From a virus, in the IMG/VR virus record IMGVR_UViG_3300043773_000259, positions 1-27,852 of that record: 27,852 bases of DNA; one strand, 5' to 3'. The translations under genes and the position numbers were made by a program. Positions 2,449 to 16,669 of the stretch are shown here, in pieces; position 1 is the first letter of the stretch; each line of letters opens with the position of its first letter. The notes under the pieces were generated by a model, which did not search any database, was not told where the DNA came from, and saw only the letters and a list, made by a program, of their open reading frames with translations.

Positions 2449-3250
2449 AAGAAACGTAGTCGATCGTGTTTGTTGTACTCGTGAAACTGCCCTCCGTCGT
2501 TTCAATCATCGCCAATCCGGTTTCAAGGACACGCGGATTCGTCGTAGGTAGCAGGAAGCGACGCATAGCACGCGTATAGCGGTTGGAGGTGTTGCCTTTG
2601 CTGTGCGTGCCTGTAACTCCGTTATTGAAGTTAATAGTGTAGGCTTCATCAGCATCGTATTCAAATGATGTCCAATAGGTGTGATTTGCGAAATTGCCTA
2701 ATCCTGCGTTATGCAGCTTAACTCGCATCTCGCTCAATTCGCCCACTGATGGCAGGAACCAATCGCTAAATCCGTTCAGCACCAAGTCATTGGCAAGCCG
2801 TGCAGCGATGCCAGCAGTTGCGCAACCTGCCACGATTGCTGCGGTATTGGCAATGCCTTGACCTATCTGCCCAGACAAGCCTCCAATGAACGTCCCCTTA
2901 CACCCCCAAGGCGCATTCGTAGATTGGTCTGATTCCGCCGTTATGTAGGCATAACCGCTGTCGGTAAATGTGTACAAGCCGCCCTGCACGAAGTCGCCAG
3001 CAGCGTAGCTGGCAGGGTTCTCGGTGACCTCGTACCGATATTGCCCTTTCTCCAGTGCGCCCAAGGTGAAGGCGAATTTGTCGTAGCGACTTTCGTAGGA
3101 CGACAGGTTGTCAATCGCGTTGAGGTAGATGTCAGTGGCTTCCAGCGTCGCCAAGTTCGTCAGCCGCAAGCGGTAGACCGTCGCGCTGTTCGCGCGCTCC
3201 GTCCACGTCACCGCTATCGTGTTGCTCTGGCTCGCCTTGAGGTATAGCAT
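2441..3250 (-). CDS. Structural protein with inserted DUF1566 (Lcl, C-type-lectin-like) domain
   Basis: The product has 269 residues in three parts. Residues 1-80 form a beta-rich module (TVYRLRLTNLATLEATDIYL ... GQYRYEVTENPAS). Residues about 85-235 look like a DUF1566/Lcl domain: WGCKGT and an AGCATAGIAARL stretch, GFSDWFLPSVGEL at 160-172, YWTSFEY at 192-198 and a closing RYTRAMRRF. Residues 236-269 (PRVLETGLAMIE...) resemble the C-terminal tail of a common Bacteroidota phage protein that otherwise follows directly on the first module. DUF1566 domains share the C-type-lectin fold and occur in surface adhesins and in targets of diversity-generating retroelements. It lies between a glycosyltransferase and the portal, so a virion-surface or receptor-binding role is plausible but unproven. 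Its start lies 119 bases inside the upstream glycosyltransferase frame. Confidence 0.75.
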   Translation of the reverse strand: MLYLKASQSNTIAVTWTERANSATVYRLRLTNLATLEATDIYLNAIDNLSSYESRYDKFAFTLGALEKGQYRYEVTENPASYAAGDFVQGGLYTFTDSGYAYITAESDQSTNAPWGCKGTFIGGLSGQIGQGIANTAAIVAGCATAGIAARLANDLVLNGFSDWFLPSVGELSEMRVKLHNAGLGNFANHTYWTSFEYDADEAYTINFNNGVTGTHSKGNTSNRYTRAMRRFLLPTTNPRVLETGLAMIETTEGSFTSTTNTIDYVSYD

Positions 3251-4334
3251 GAAGTTCTTTTATTGAAATATCCCTCGCCACGTTTTTGTACAAATTGAAC
3301 CTGCGTCTGGTGATTTCATCAATGTCAAATCGCTTCTGCATCTTCGCCGTCAGCCTGTCCGCCATCTCACGCGCCATCGCTGGCTCGTTGATCATAGCCT
3401 TCATCGACTTGTACCACTTCTTCGGTTGCTTTTCGTCCACAAGCACGCCATCCCAGCCGTCGGTGATGCAGTCGGCATACATGCAGACGTTGCTGGCGAT
3501 GATCGCCTTGTTCATCCAAGCCGCCTCGGTGATCTTCAACTCCGACTTGAGCCTGTTGAACTTATTGTCGCGAAGCGGCGCAAGCGCAACGTCAATGAAG
3601 TTGTAGCCGCCAACGTAGCTGTAAATATCCGCCGCCTGTATGCGTCCGTAGTTGTTGTTCTTGCCCTTATTGCTGAACACCTGCTCATACTGCTGATATA
3701 TCGGGTTGCCCTCATTCCACCCGGCAAGGTACAGCATATATCGACCTTCCAGCGTGTGATCGTCGCAAAGGCGCGACAGTGGCAGTTCCAGCAATGCCAC
3801 GTCCTCGGTGTGCTGCGCTGCGCCAAAGTAGCCAAAGCGTAGGCGCTCGCTCTTGGTAGGTTGCGGCTTGAATTGGTCGTACAACAGGTGCGGCACGTTC
3901 TCGCAGATTGTCACGTTGCGGTTGAGCTTGACGATTTCATCGCGGAGGTACGTCGTAGTCGTGATGACCGCATCCGCAAGCTTGACGTGTTCGGCGACGA
4001 TCGCAGACATATTTGTATCGTGGTAGTGCTTGTAGAAACTGTGGCCAGTGCCAAGATGCCAATAGTCGTCCATGTCAAGAATGATCTTCGCGCCGTACTG
4101 TCGTAGGATGTCAGCGACAGGCTTGACCGCCTCAATTGGCCCTGCGATCCAAGTGCGATTATACAGGAACACGTCGATAGTCCGCAGCTCTTCATCGCTC
4201 ATGGTGCGCACGTCAGCGATGCTCACGAACTCGGCCTCGCTGCCGAACATCTCATGGACGCGACTGCTTGGCATCTCCAAGCGGTAATAGCTGCACCCTG
4301 TCGGATGCTGATTATAGACGATACATACACGCAT
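3132..4334 (-). CDS. Glycosyltransferase, GT4-like
   Basis: This is a 400-residue protein that starts MRVCIVYNQHPTGCSYYRLEMP, the nucleotide-sugar enzyme N-terminus often seen in phage glycosyltransferases. KIILDMDDYWHLG follows, and a C-terminal Rossmann half contains FIDVALAPLRDNKFNRLKSELKITEAAWMNKAIIASNV, with the E of the E-x7-E region of GT-B enzymes near residue 272. It probably transfers a sugar to a virion protein, DNA or a host surface glycan; the acceptor cannot be told. The expected C-terminus is near ISIKEL. From there the frame runs a further 39 codons out of phase across the start of the DUF1566 gene, giving a low-complexity polar tail that looks non-native. That may be a real overlap or a lost stop. 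It is the first gene after the 4351-4387 terminator. Confidence 0.83.
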   Translation of the reverse strand: MRVCIVYNQHPTGCSYYRLEMPSSRVHEMFGSEAEFVSIADVRTMSDEELRTIDVFLYNRTWIAGPIEAVKPVADILRQYGAKIILDMDDYWHLGTGHSFYKHYHDTNMSAIVAEHVKLADAVITTTTYLRDEIVKLNRNVTICENVPHLLYDQFKPQPTKSERLRFGYFGAAQHTEDVALLELPLSRLCDDHTLEGRYMLYLAGWNEGNPIYQQYEQVFSNKGKNNNYGRIQAADIYSYVGGYNFIDVALAPLRDNKFNRLKSELKITEAAWMNKAIIASNVCMYADCITDGWDGVLVDEKQPKKWYKSMKAMINEPAMAREMADRLTAKMQKRFDIDEITRRRFNLYKNVARDISIKELHAIPQGEPEQHDSGDVDGAREQRDGLPLAADELGDAGSH

Positions 4335-13376: not shown

Positions 13377-13864
13377 AAAAAAGCGGCATATCCCCAAACG
13401 TCACCCATGTTCATCTGCAACATCGCCTCTGCGCGCTGCTTATGACCCTTGCCGTCATACGCCTTCGGCCACCACTTCCACACCTTGCACTCCCTCGAAA
13501 GCGTCGCCAAGATCAAGTGCAAGTTGTCAATAACACCCTGCTCGCTCGTCATGTCGTAGGAATACAGCTCGACCAACTGCCCTGCGCTTATTTCGTCGAT
13601 GAACCACTCAAATTGATACCACTTTCCGGCAACCTTGGCGTGACGCTTAGCCGCCAGTGACGATAGCGATTTGCTCGCCGCGTTGATCTCACCATAACGC
13701 TTGTTGACCTCCGCAATCGTCATCTTCTTGACCTGCTCGATCGGGATGCCGTCAAGAACGGCGATGACGCCGATCTTCTTGTCGCTTGTGGTGTAGATTG
13801 CGTTCGCCTCAATCGACACAATGCGCTGGAACTGGTCGACGGTGATTTTGTTGAGGATGCTCAT
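13292..13864 (-). CDS. Tail assembly chaperone (G-like, zero-frame product)
   Basis: The 190-residue product starts MSILNKITVDQFQRIVSIEANAIYTTSDKKIGVIAVLDGIPIEQVKKMTIAEV, the pattern of the first of two tail-assembly-chaperone proteins in Bacteroidota phages (K-I-T-v-x-Q-f ... i.avl.gi...v..m...e). The C-terminal part carries NMGDVWGYAAFFLQLSEPLL. In lambda and many siphophages two chaperone forms, made by frameshift, bind the tape measure while the tail polymerises. The codons GCT TTT TTT TTG at 13384-13373 form a T9 slip site inside the ORF, and the second chaperone part lies in the -1 frame beyond it. It overlaps the upstream glycosyltransferase by ATGA. The zero-frame end past the slip site is the short form. 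Confidence 0.77.
   Translation of the reverse strand: MSILNKITVDQFQRIVSIEANAIYTTSDKKIGVIAVLDGIPIEQVKKMTIAEVNKRYGEINAASKSLSSLAAKRHAKVAGKWYQFEWFIDEISAGQLVELYSYDMTSEQGVIDNLHLILATLSRECKVWKWWPKAYDGKGHKQRAEAMLQMNMGDVWGYAAFFLQLSEPLLMIMRRSLTDQQTTTTTAKV
13373..13383 (-). promoter_or_regulatory. -1 programmed ribosomal frameshift site (T9 slippery run)
   Basis: The minus strand reads C followed by nine T and then G. In the zero frame the codons are GCT TTT TTT TTG, so both T_TTT_TTT and T_TTT_TTG slippery heptamers are present. A -1 slip joins the 163-codon head of the chaperone to the 72-codon frame that ends at 13158. A pseudoknot or hairpin downstream was not established. Homopolymers of nine can also be assembly errors, but both frames extend well either side. 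Confidence 0.75.
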
Positions 13865-14733
13865 CCTTTTATGGCTTTAAGGTAAAGTGCATAAAGTTGG
13901 CCGCATACCGTTTCACTGCGATAGTTAGCAATGTCTGCAGGTACTGTTAGCATCTCGCGCTTGGTCACTGCACCTTCCGCGTTAAAGTGATAACTCATCA
14001 CACCCTTGCCACACATCCACGCCTCTATCGTCGTTCTACCTATATGCAAACCACATGCAAAGTGGCATCCCTTAACCAGCGTTTCAATGTTGCTCACCGA
14101 ATCGCAGTAGTGAACTGGAAAGCGGTCAATCAAGTCCTTTAAGTAGTCGCCATGATCATAACCCACCAACACAAATGGCCTGTCGTTTTCTTTGCACCAC
14201 GCTGCCGCATCGTAAATCATCGCCTTGCGCATGAAATCAACAGTTCCCGCCAGTAAAACATAGCCGCCATCCTGAACGCCATCGGTGTTGAATCGGCTGT
14301 AATCAACTGGATTGTAGATGACGCTTATCTTGTTTAAGGGAACGCCATATCTTGCGTGTATTTCGTGCTTTTCGTGTTGAGCTATACTGATATACCCCTT
14401 GATGCTTTCGTGCTTCACAGGCCGCTCTAAATCGTAAAAAACGCTATGTATCGTAGCGACCTTCGGTGTAGTTGGAAACAATACGCACAGATGTTCAGTG
14501 ACCTGCTTGTGCTGAACATGGATGACGTTGTACGCCTCACGTCCTGTCAACTCTGTCCACGCCTTAACCTGCACGCCTGCCATCTCAGCCTCTGCGATCA
14601 ATGGGTAGTCCATGTATGGCGAGGTGACCGTTACGTTGTGTCCCATAGCTTTCAAGCCTTTGGCAACGTGCAAGACGTACAACTCTGATCCTGTGTACTT
14701 GCGAAAAAAAAGCGATGCGATTAGGATTCTCAT
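13861..14733 (-). CDS. Glycosyltransferase, GT4 family
   Basis: The 290-residue protein begins MRILIASLFFRKYTGSELYVLHVAKGLKAMGHNVTVTSPYMDY, the standard GT-B/GT4 opening with a conserved GSE. An IHVQHKQ segment, KVATIHSVFYDL, and ISVIYNPVDYSRF (linking the two Rossmann domains) follow, then YVLLAGTVDFMRKAMIYDAAAWCKENDRPFVLVG and GRTTIEAWMCGKGVMSY. The last holds the E-x7-E-like nucleotide-sugar region. It would transfer a sugar from an NDP-sugar to an unknown acceptor. It overlaps the acetyltransferase upstream and the tail chaperone downstream by ATGA. That places it inside the late structural operon, which makes virion glycosylation or host-envelope modification during late infection plausible. 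Confidence 0.82.
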   Translation of the reverse strand: MRILIASLFFRKYTGSELYVLHVAKGLKAMGHNVTVTSPYMDYPLIAEAEMAGVQVKAWTELTGREAYNVIHVQHKQVTEHLCVLFPTTPKVATIHSVFYDLERPVKHESIKGYISIAQHEKHEIHARYGVPLNKISVIYNPVDYSRFNTDGVQDGGYVLLAGTVDFMRKAMIYDAAAWCKENDRPFVLVGYDHGDYLKDLIDRFPVHYCDSVSNIETLVKGCHFACGLHIGRTTIEAWMCGKGVMSYHFNAEGAVTKREMLTVPADIANYRSETVCGQLYALYLKAIKG

Positions 14734-15206: not shown

Positions 15207-16382
15207 CTACATAATCACGTACCTACCCCCAGCGTTGGCGGATAGCTTGTTCAAGGCGACGTAACGCACCGCGTCAATGGCGTGGTTGTACCGGTCAATC
15301 GGCACTCCCAACGACGCGCCCGTGCGATCGGTGTCCCAAGTGTAGTTGCGTAGTTCCTTGATCAGGTTCGTCGATTCACGCGTCACGAGCATCGGCTGCC
15401 GCTTTAGGATGTCGATGCTGTTCCTGATGCTGTCTGCGCCCTTCGTCGCCGGGTGTATGTTGAAGCCAAGGCGATGCACCTCCTCAATGCTCTTGGGTTC
15501 AGCACTGTCAGCGATGATCGGCCACGACCTGCCGATGCCTAGCTTGCGTAGGTGTTCAGCAATGTCTTGATTGGTGAGGCCGTTTTGGTAGATCAATTCA
15601 TGCAGGAGAATAGCACTGCCACGCTTGTAAACGGCCACCACCGCCGTAGGGTCATTCGTGTATCCCCAGTCCAAGCCGATGGCGACCAGCTTGTCACCAG
15701 CGAAGTCGATGCCGTCGACCTGCTGCCAGTCGTCAAAGACCACGCCCTGCAATGATCCGACCTCACCCAAGCCGTAGACCTTCCACCAGTTCGCCCAGTA
15801 CGTCGATGTCGCCGCCTTGACCTGCGCCGCTTCGATGTCGTCGCGGATCGTCGCCGGCAGTGCCTCGTTGTCGCGGTATGTCAGCACCAGCAACTCACTG
15901 TCTTGCTCGGCTAAGACCTCCGTGTGCGCCCAGAACTCCGACACCGGGTTGAAGTCGATGTAGATGGCTTCGCTTGTTCTGATAGCCAGCTGATGGTACG
16001 CCTCAAACTCGATGTTGTTGGCTTCGTTTATGTATAGCACCTGTCGCCGTGCGCCGCGTAGCTTAGCCTCCTGATCAGCACTGAAAAACTCAATCGTGCT
16101 GCCATTCGCAAACGTGTAGGTCAGCAGCGTCTTGTTCCAGCCTTCGTCGCGCCAGCGGTTCGTCCACTGCATGACCTTGCCGAAGTCCTTCATAGCACCA
16201 CGTCGCAGGTGCGGGATTGATTCAGATACGACGCTGATCTCGGTCTTGGCCTTGGCTGCAATGTGGATCAACACTGCGAGGATCGCGTAGGTCTTGCCCG
16301 CGCTCGTTCCGCCTTGGATGACTTTCTTGCGAGCCGTCATCCGCCTGATGCGCTTTATCGCGGTGGTGTGATGAAATGCCAT
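15207..16382 (-). CDS. terL: Terminase large subunit (ATPase-nuclease)
   Basis: The product has 391 residues. The ATPase half has Walker A GGTSAGKT at 24-31, Walker B-like VLYINEAN at 115-122 and IYIDFNPVSEFWAH following. The nuclease half has GLDWGYTNDPTAVV with D238, IIADSAEPKSI with D292, and YNHAIDAVRY with D370, the three acidic positions expected of the RNase H-like nuclease in the Terminase_3/PBSX family. It pumps DNA into the prohead at the portal and cuts concatemers. The ATG lies immediately after the last of three tRNA-like genes (three bases beyond its discriminator), with no ribosome-binding site. The small subunit is separated from it by a methyltransferase, a MazG-like gene and the tRNA-like genes, rather than being adjacent. 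Confidence 0.93.
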   Translation of the reverse strand: MAFHHTTAIKRIRRMTARKKVIQGGTSAGKTYAILAVLIHIAAKAKTEISVVSESIPHLRRGAMKDFGKVMQWTNRWRDEGWNKTLLTYTFANGSTIEFFSADQEAKLRGARRQVLYINEANNIEFEAYHQLAIRTSEAIYIDFNPVSEFWAHTEVLAEQDSELLVLTYRDNEALPATIRDDIEAAQVKAATSTYWANWWKVYGLGEVGSLQGVVFDDWQQVDGIDFAGDKLVAIGLDWGYTNDPTAVVAVYKRGSAILLHELIYQNGLTNQDIAEHLRKLGIGRSWPIIADSAEPKSIEEVHRLGFNIHPATKGADSIRNSIDILKRQPMLVTRESTNLIKELRNYTWDTDRTGASLGVPIDRYNHAIDAVRYVALNKLSANAGGRYVIM

Positions 16383-16385
16383 TTG

Positions 16386-16482
16386 TAACCGAGGTGGGGT
16401 TCGAACCCACGTTTACAACTTCTGTTTACGGTCGGGGTGCGCACTCCCTAATTGTCGTTTTACCACTTAAACTACTTCGGTT
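16386..16482 (-). tRNA. tRNA-like gene with expanded anticodon region (third of three)
   Basis: The 97-base minus-strand element has an acceptor pairing AACCGAA with CTCGGTT (one mismatch at position 7). The D-arm is GTTT / AAAC with a GG-containing loop, and the T-arm is a perfect GTGGG TTCGAAC CCCAC. The middle cannot form a normal anticodon arm. A 5-bp stem ACAAT / GTTGT encloses a 31-base loop, inside which GGG(A)GT and ACCCC form a small hairpin. Normal loops have 7 bases. The variable region is 4 bases (AAAC). The 3' side reads A-CAA with no encoded CCA. The ATG of the large terminase follows at once. It may be an insertion-bearing tRNA, a decoy, or a degenerate gene. No anticodon can be assigned. 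Confidence 0.6.
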
Positions 16483-16499
16483 TTTTCTAATATCATTTT

Positions 16500-16511
16500 G
16501 TTGACGTCAAC
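16500..16511. repeat. Perfect 12-bp palindrome between tRNA-like genes
   Basis: GTTGACGTCAAC is its own reverse complement and lies in the 41-base spacer between the second and third tRNA-like genes. It could fold as a short stem to guide processing or be a protein site. A perfect 12-mer palindrome is expected by chance a few times in a window this size, so this is a weak note. Confidence 0.35.
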
Positions 16512-16523
16512 GAAATGGTTTTG

Positions 16524-16594
16524 TGGCCATGGCAGGATTTGAACCTGCAATAAACCCCGCCATTGGGGTGTGTGTGCCTTTCCACCACATAGCC
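16524..16594 (-). tRNA. tRNA-like gene with a 6-base anticodon loop (second of three)
   Basis: The 71-base minus-strand element has acceptor GGCTATG / CATGGCC (seven pairs, one G-U) and a perfect T-arm GCAGG TTCAAAT CCTGC. A short D-arm GTG / CAC has a GG-containing loop. The anticodon stem ACCCC / GGGGT is five perfect pairs but closes a loop of only six bases, AATGGC. Forcing a seven-base loop breaks the stem, so the anticodon cannot be assigned (GGC after T, or TGG, are the readings on view). The variable loop is TTATT. The 3' flank is A-CAA, as in the other two, with no encoded CCA. Only three bases separate it from the first tRNA-like gene. Confidence 0.68.
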
Positions 16595-16597
16595 TTG

Positions 16598-16669
16598 TAG
16601 TCAGGACAGGACTCGAACCTGTATTTGCAGGCCCTTTCGAGCCCGTGGTTACCATTACGCCACCTGACT
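16598..16669 (-). tRNA. tRNA-like gene with an 8-base anticodon loop (first of three)
   Basis: The 72-base minus-strand element has a perfect 7-bp acceptor AGTCAGG / CCTGACT and a perfect T-arm ACAGG TTCGAGT CCTGT. The D-arm GTGG / CCAC has a GG-containing loop, but its stem starts almost without the usual two-base linker after the acceptor. The best anticodon stem CGGGC / GCCTG leaves an eight-base loop TCGAAAGG. That is one base more than normal and lacks a clear U33, although GAA (Phe) is in the expected region. The variable loop is CAAAT. It ends A-CAA without encoded CCA. The 5' end lies eight bases after a TATATTTG -7 element. The identity cannot be stated with confidence. Confidence 0.7.

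Follow-up and report, generated by a model that had tools for sequence, protein, structure and literature searches.

Probable non-decoding tRNA-scaffold RNAs with exchanged interiors beside terL in an uncultured phage and its relatives

That a tRNA-like RNA can serve for something other than decoding is already known as an idea, with T4 RNA C and tmRNA as the examples. In tmRNA, a tRNA-like domain of acceptor and T-arm is present, and a long, pseudoknotted insert stands where the anticodon arm would be. In the engineered 'tRNA scaffold', acceptor stem, D- and T-arms are kept and the anticodon arm gives way to a foreign RNA that is to be stably expressed in E. coli (PMC3753655). Species 1 RNA of phage T4 (rnaC) is a late RNA of unknown function that was seen on Northern blots (PMC9697503). 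This stable phage RNA is encoded in a tRNA gene cluster, beside rnaD, and shares a T-arm with the elements reported here, in its case a perfect one close to the 3' end (CCGGG-TTCGAAT-CCCGG), but T4 makes one such RNA per genome and its acceptor pairing is partial by reading of the sequence. To our knowledge, no shared shell with interchangeable interiors has been described for rnaC. Furthermore, phage tRNA genes with altered anticodon loops were proposed to act against host defence (PMC10264068); these carry loop mutations, whereas in the elements described below the whole arm is replaced. GOLLD and ROOL are non-coding phage RNAs of unknown function that occur near tRNA islands (PMC12286853).

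Among cultured phages, the 234-kb Tenacibaculum phage pT24, announced with 4 tRNAs in all (PMC5502841), offers a close likeness. Two of its genes are annotated 'tRNA-Undet'. Their acceptor, D- and T-arms are normal; in both, the anticodon hairpin is lengthened (TTCG-C-GGGTA-TAT-TACCC-T-CGAA). ARAGORN names both of them tRNA-Ile (TAT), and the fold places TAT in a triloop. They differ from our elements in their shell (GGTTGTA/TACAACC) and in being just two near-identical copies. The same small array holds an annotated suppressor tRNA with a CUA anticodon (pT24 191520-191593, i.e. 21520-21593 of L382; L-numbers denote the fetched loci or contigs that were compared), and genes for Pnk and RNA ligase are present in this phage too.

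The window analysed here is the virus record IMGVR_UViG_3300043773_000259 of IMG/VR, positions 1-27,852, that is the whole record of 27,852 bases. Its terL is approximately 51% identical to a Flavobacterium phage terL, hence the host is probably a member of the Bacteroidota. Three tRNA-like elements precede this gene on the minus strand (Table 1), as the initial annotation had claimed. Two glycosyltransferase genes lie among the structural genes of the window, at 3132-4334 and, close to terL, at 13861-14733.

Table 1. Positions of the tRNA-like elements and of terL in the window.
Feature	Position	Strand	Description
Element 1	16598..16669	-	tRNA-like RNA, widespread shell AGTCAGG/CCTGACT, without usable anticodon; RF00005 40.4 bits
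Element 1 interior	16628..16645	-	CGGGC-UCGAAAGG-GCCUG in place of the anticodon arm; read from the sequence
Element 2	16524..16594	-	tRNA-like RNA, shell GGCUAUG/CAUGGCC; RF00005 42.5 bits
Element 2 hairpin at anticodon position	16554..16569	-	ACCCC-AAUGGC-GGGGU, 6-nt loop; minimum-energy structure
Element 3	16386..16482	-	tRNA-like RNA, shell AACCGAA/CUCGGUU, 3 nt ahead of the terL start codon; RF00005 37.1 bits
Element 3 interior	16415..16455	-	ACAAU stem, 31-nt insert with internal GGG/CCC hairpin, GUUGU
terL (terminase large subunit)	15207..16382	-	Terminase_3C 2.9e-16, Terminase_3 1.8e-9; ATG directly after ACAA of element 3

Acceptor stem, D-arm and a T-arm with TTCRA loop can be recognised in all three elements, and each of them scores above the gathering score of the Rfam tRNA model RF00005 (29 bits). 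The acceptors are excellent overall, as had been stated before, but that of element 3 contains one A.C mismatch. Direct reading of the sequence also bears out the loops of 8, 6 and 31 nt at the anticodon position, so that a 5-bp stem with 7-nt loop, U33 and anticodon is found in none of the three. The 8-nt loop of element 1 would become a GAAA tetraloop on a 7-pair stem if extra pairs form. By RNA folding, element 2 is a clean cloverleaf with its 6-nt loop; for elements 1 and 3 the structure of minimum energy is something other than a cloverleaf. ARAGORN called two of the three elements in the window, both as 'tRNA-???' with a 2- or 4-base 'anticodon' and no amino acid. An intron was looked for by reading the interiors only: an insert whose removal restores a 7-nt loop is not apparent, and no insert is present in elements 1 and 2. 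The spacing is likewise as first reported, with A-CAA leading into element 2 and again into the ATG of terL. Between elements 2 and 3, at 16494-16517, lies the near-perfect palindrome CATTTTGTTGACGTCAACGAAATG, possibly an operator or promoter, which is kept in nearly all relatives, with one-base variants in L009 and L212.

The identity with tmRNA was considered and rejected, as neither ARAGORN nor Rfam gave a tmRNA match in the window or the array loci. The G3.U70 alanine identity pair is absent, the third acceptor pair in AGTCAGG/CCTGACT being U-A, and the elements mostly measure 70-210 nt compared with about 350 nt for tmRNA.

Sequencing errors or chance can be rejected as well, because near-identical elements recur in 23-25 independent contigs. 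Element 2 was found in 25 public contigs, where its anticodon region is constant except for single substitutions and the hairpin ACCCC-AAUGGC-GGGGU is unchanged in all intact copies; element 3 was found in 23, with an interior constant except for one substitution in the copies found. Since they vary hardly at all, elements 2 and 3 show no covariation of their own. One truncated copy of element 2 exists in L211 near 8659, cut at the loop (junction ATGGCGGGG) and fused to other sequence, with the breakpoint inside the anticodon hairpin.

Element 1 behaves differently in the related phages: upstream of terL its shell is the same and the interiors are quite different. Five types of element 1 interior stand beside an almost unchanged element 2, namely those of the window, of L204/L217 (...ACGGTAGGACAACGTGCCCCGTATAGGTGAGATACCTTGGCT), of L203/L213, which is related to the former, of L006 and of L009. 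Identity to the window amounts to 90-92% upstream and 97-98% downstream in L216, L220 and L221, and yet the element 1 interior is different. As judged from these sequences, the interior is exchanged within a constant element 1 shell at one site. The interior of L006/L028/L312 may form a pseudoknot, with compensatory changes in both crossing helices, in three sequences only. Some relatives are without any element at the terL site. Comparison with homologues yielded no plain 7-base loops that would expose errors in the window; the interiors of the relatives are even stranger.

The shell of element 1 reaches far beyond this locus. The exact 28-mer of its T-arm, acceptor and ACAA was matched in over 119 stretches of IMG/VR, on contigs of up to 308 kb among the matches listed, and has no match in 84,980 genomes of GTDB; a 30-mer of the 3' end of the shell has none in 50,697 cultured-phage records. 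None of the cultured phages matched 80% of a composite query made from the two conserved halves (5' and 3') of the shell. A shorter 23-mer matches 10 stretches of GTDB contigs, half of them labelled Sediminibacterium, Flavobacterium, Chitinophagaceae or Saprospiraceae (all Bacteroidota), and the others Neisseriaceae, Helicobacteraceae, Peregrinibacteria or without a name; these other labels may reflect binning errors or a broader range of hosts. The class appears to be carried by many uncultured viruses of Bacteroidota from freshwater. The terminase that was used for searching is T4-like, its closest named cultured phage being Flavobacterium phage immuto at 26% identity.

Altogether, 372 loci were examined, some contigs being fetched repeatedly, with identical elements counted once. 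On this basis there are 374 distinct AGTCAGG-shell elements in 213 loci, mostly in large phages with 1-16 copies per phage, and their interiors measure 22-161 nt (median 71). When any shell is admitted, 454 non-decoding elements fall into 320 interior sequence clusters, 249 of which are singletons. In 20 large records (1-16 copies each), all copies lie on a single strand in 19, and the backwards control gave 0. Arrays of ordinary tRNAs adjoin the odd elements in several large records. In L186, a GOLLD RNA (262 bits, 1293-1710) is located directly before tRNA-Leu in an array with shell elements; GOLLD and ROOL differ from our class in that they are hundreds of nucleotides long, have their own fold and are not built within a tRNA.

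The loss of the decoding arm is nearly complete. An ordinary anticodon arm, defined as 5-bp stem, 7-nt loop, U33 and purine at position 37, was found in only 4 of the 374 AGTCAGG-shell elements compared to 343 of 493 tRNA-like genes with other acceptors; by chance, approximately 0.9 would be expected among the 173 shell elements short enough to test. Three of the four exceptions, one for Thr (UGU, L152) and two for Lys (UUU, L262 and L309), resemble real tRNAs. Acceptor stem, T-arm and usually the D-arm are kept, and the stretch that spans anticodon arm and variable loop, sometimes also the D-loop, gives way to an unrelated RNA module. At the same time the elements carry the flank signature of ordinary phage tRNA genes (T at -1, discriminator, C): base -1 before the acceptor is T in 84% of the shell elements versus 66% of the ordinary tRNA genes in the same loci, and C follows the discriminator in 100% versus 99%. 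The A-CAA trailer, which had been pointed out for all three elements of the window, is indeed present, but it is rejected as a special signal; as ordinary tRNA genes have the C after the discriminator too, ACAA is a general feature and not a signature of the elements. Taken together, the elements cannot decode and probably have another job during infection.

In 66 pairs of elements with a common interior, the interiors are mostly 70-99% identical and both 80-bp flanks are at or near the random level (approximately 0.48) in nearly all pairs, the clear exception being the near-identical contigs L058/L074; the homology stops at the ends of the tRNA-like RNA. Family F3 comprises 16 sequences; each of its 23 proposed pairs is formed in 100% of them, and 11 pairs show double-sided compensatory changes. 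Of 500 shuffles 0 did as well, and slid controls failed. One of its helices, columns 10-13 with 53-56, is absent from tRNA, and the F3 interior occurs in differing shells, e.g. AGTCGAG/CTCGGCT in L087. More generally, 11 of the 71 interior clusters with at least two members span clearly different acceptors. D-loop inserts also combine with different interiors (L149/L243, L180/L243 and L193/L313). Those of L180 (GTTAACA/TGTTAAC around ACCCCGT/ACGGGGT) and L243 are structured. Two further families were noticed. Family Y (L088, L158, L199), with the shell CCATTCT/AGAATGG or CCACTCT/AGAGTGG, has a conserved CGCC..CCGA tip enclosed by a long arm, CTTACAT/ATGTAAG or CTTTGTGT/ACACAGAG, and compensatory changes are visible; in family Z (L160, L196, L107), tRNA-like genes carry a similar GTAGACCACCAGC motif within a large insert at the variable arm.

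On these grounds the interiors look functional. It must be mentioned that the folding of isolated interiors exceeds that of shuffles by only a small margin on average (mean z -0.55, with 9% below -2), and a closing helix at the interior ends is, as a general feature, not enriched above shuffles. Since folding is so near to that of shuffles, many interiors may be weakly structured or pseudoknotted, and singleton interiors are possibly neutral.

We consider it likely that the elements are non-decoding 'tRNA-scaffold' RNAs, an interpretation drawn from comparative sequence data. They have the architecture of the engineered scaffold, with the tRNA shell kept and an RNA module in place of the anticodon arm, but the latter is man-made and the elements are natural and present one shell with hundreds of interiors. 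The ordinary-tRNA flank signals together with the intact acceptor and T-arm suggest processing by tRNA enzymes: the host maturation machinery (RNase P, 3' processing and CCA addition) would excise the RNA from a polycistronic transcript, the tRNA fold would shield it from nucleases, and the interior module would be the active part that binds a host protein or RNA. No consistent partner gene was found near the loci, the commonest gene family being near 18 of 209, and the longest complement to the own genome is 12 nt; a trans-acting role on a host factor is therefore favoured. The fast exchange of modules at a fixed locus suggests an arms race, which makes host takeover or counter-defence the likeliest purpose, although we put this forward only tentatively. 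With similar reserve, the elements can be imagined as a combinatorial set of RNA weapons in uncultured Bacteroidota phages, with a constant shell, processing by the host and hundreds of swappable interiors and D-loop inserts, in which each interior would inhibit or distract a specific host factor and cassettes would be swapped in the arms race. Of the functions offered in the initial annotation, RNAs with a role other than decoding is thus the one that gained support, and it extends far beyond the window.

An alternative from the same source, which appears unlikely to us, is that the elements are decoys or nuclease-resistant tRNA mimics. They might, for example, soak up toxins that act on tRNA ends or escape from anticodon nucleases; the shell alone would matter and the interior would be free to drift. 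Indeed, the interior varies far more than the shell, hardly any decoding arms are present and interiors average near-random folding. In addition, the Pnk and RNA ligase of the cultured pT24 represent classical tRNA repair, and it has been proposed that phage tRNAs evade host nucleases through changes in the anticodon loop (PMC10264068). However, a plain mimic leaves unaccounted for the conservation of interiors in phages whose flanks are unrelated, together with the compensatory changes and non-tRNA helices of the interiors, and the reuse of modules in several shells is unexpected of a free filler.

It is quite improbable that the shell acts at the DNA level, as a recombination or attachment site or mobile cassette with a secondary RNA resemblance. 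Such a feature would suit the 28-bp identity across divergent phages, the presence, absence and swapping at one locus and the unrelated flanks, but other shells hold the same interiors with fully compensated stems, the homology ends where the RNA ends, D-loop, T-loop and flank signals are retained, and the copies lie on one strand. Spread of the cassettes by recombination may still occur. Decay of tRNA genes into pseudogenes is very improbable: a usable anticodon is absent and one contig has the truncated element 2, yet acceptor, T-arm and flank signals are intact in hundreds of copies, the interiors of elements 2 and 3 are almost invariant in 23-25 contigs, and compensatory changes were found in interiors of family F3. 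We give as little credit to tRNA punctuation, in which element 3 would mainly let tRNA processing make the 5' end of the terL mRNA; in the window, and also in relatives whose elements are quite different (L028, L043), NCAA stands immediately before the start codon of terL, but other relatives have no element at terL and in the wider class almost no element has a gene start immediately after it, so punctuation could be an added local effect. Finally, frameshift-suppressor tRNAs, once suggested by the 8- and 6-nt loops of elements 1 and 2, can practically be dismissed, as neither loop has a U33-like base ahead of a plausible anticodon and the interiors found at this locus in relatives are much longer, those of the class (22-161 nt) being without any loop able to decode.

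A description of the class was not found in the open literature, and Rfam recognises the elements solely as weak tRNAs. Within the literature searched, the system of one shell with many swappable interiors is what appears to be new. If our reading is right, a type of non-coding RNA that is common in freshwater phages has escaped notice, since such elements are set aside by annotation tools as 'undetermined' or pseudo-tRNA. It would represent a natural counterpart of the engineered tRNA scaffold and a source of many RNA modules under strong selection. Moreover, it would provide a handle on why phages carry tRNA clusters and on the role of T4 RNA C.
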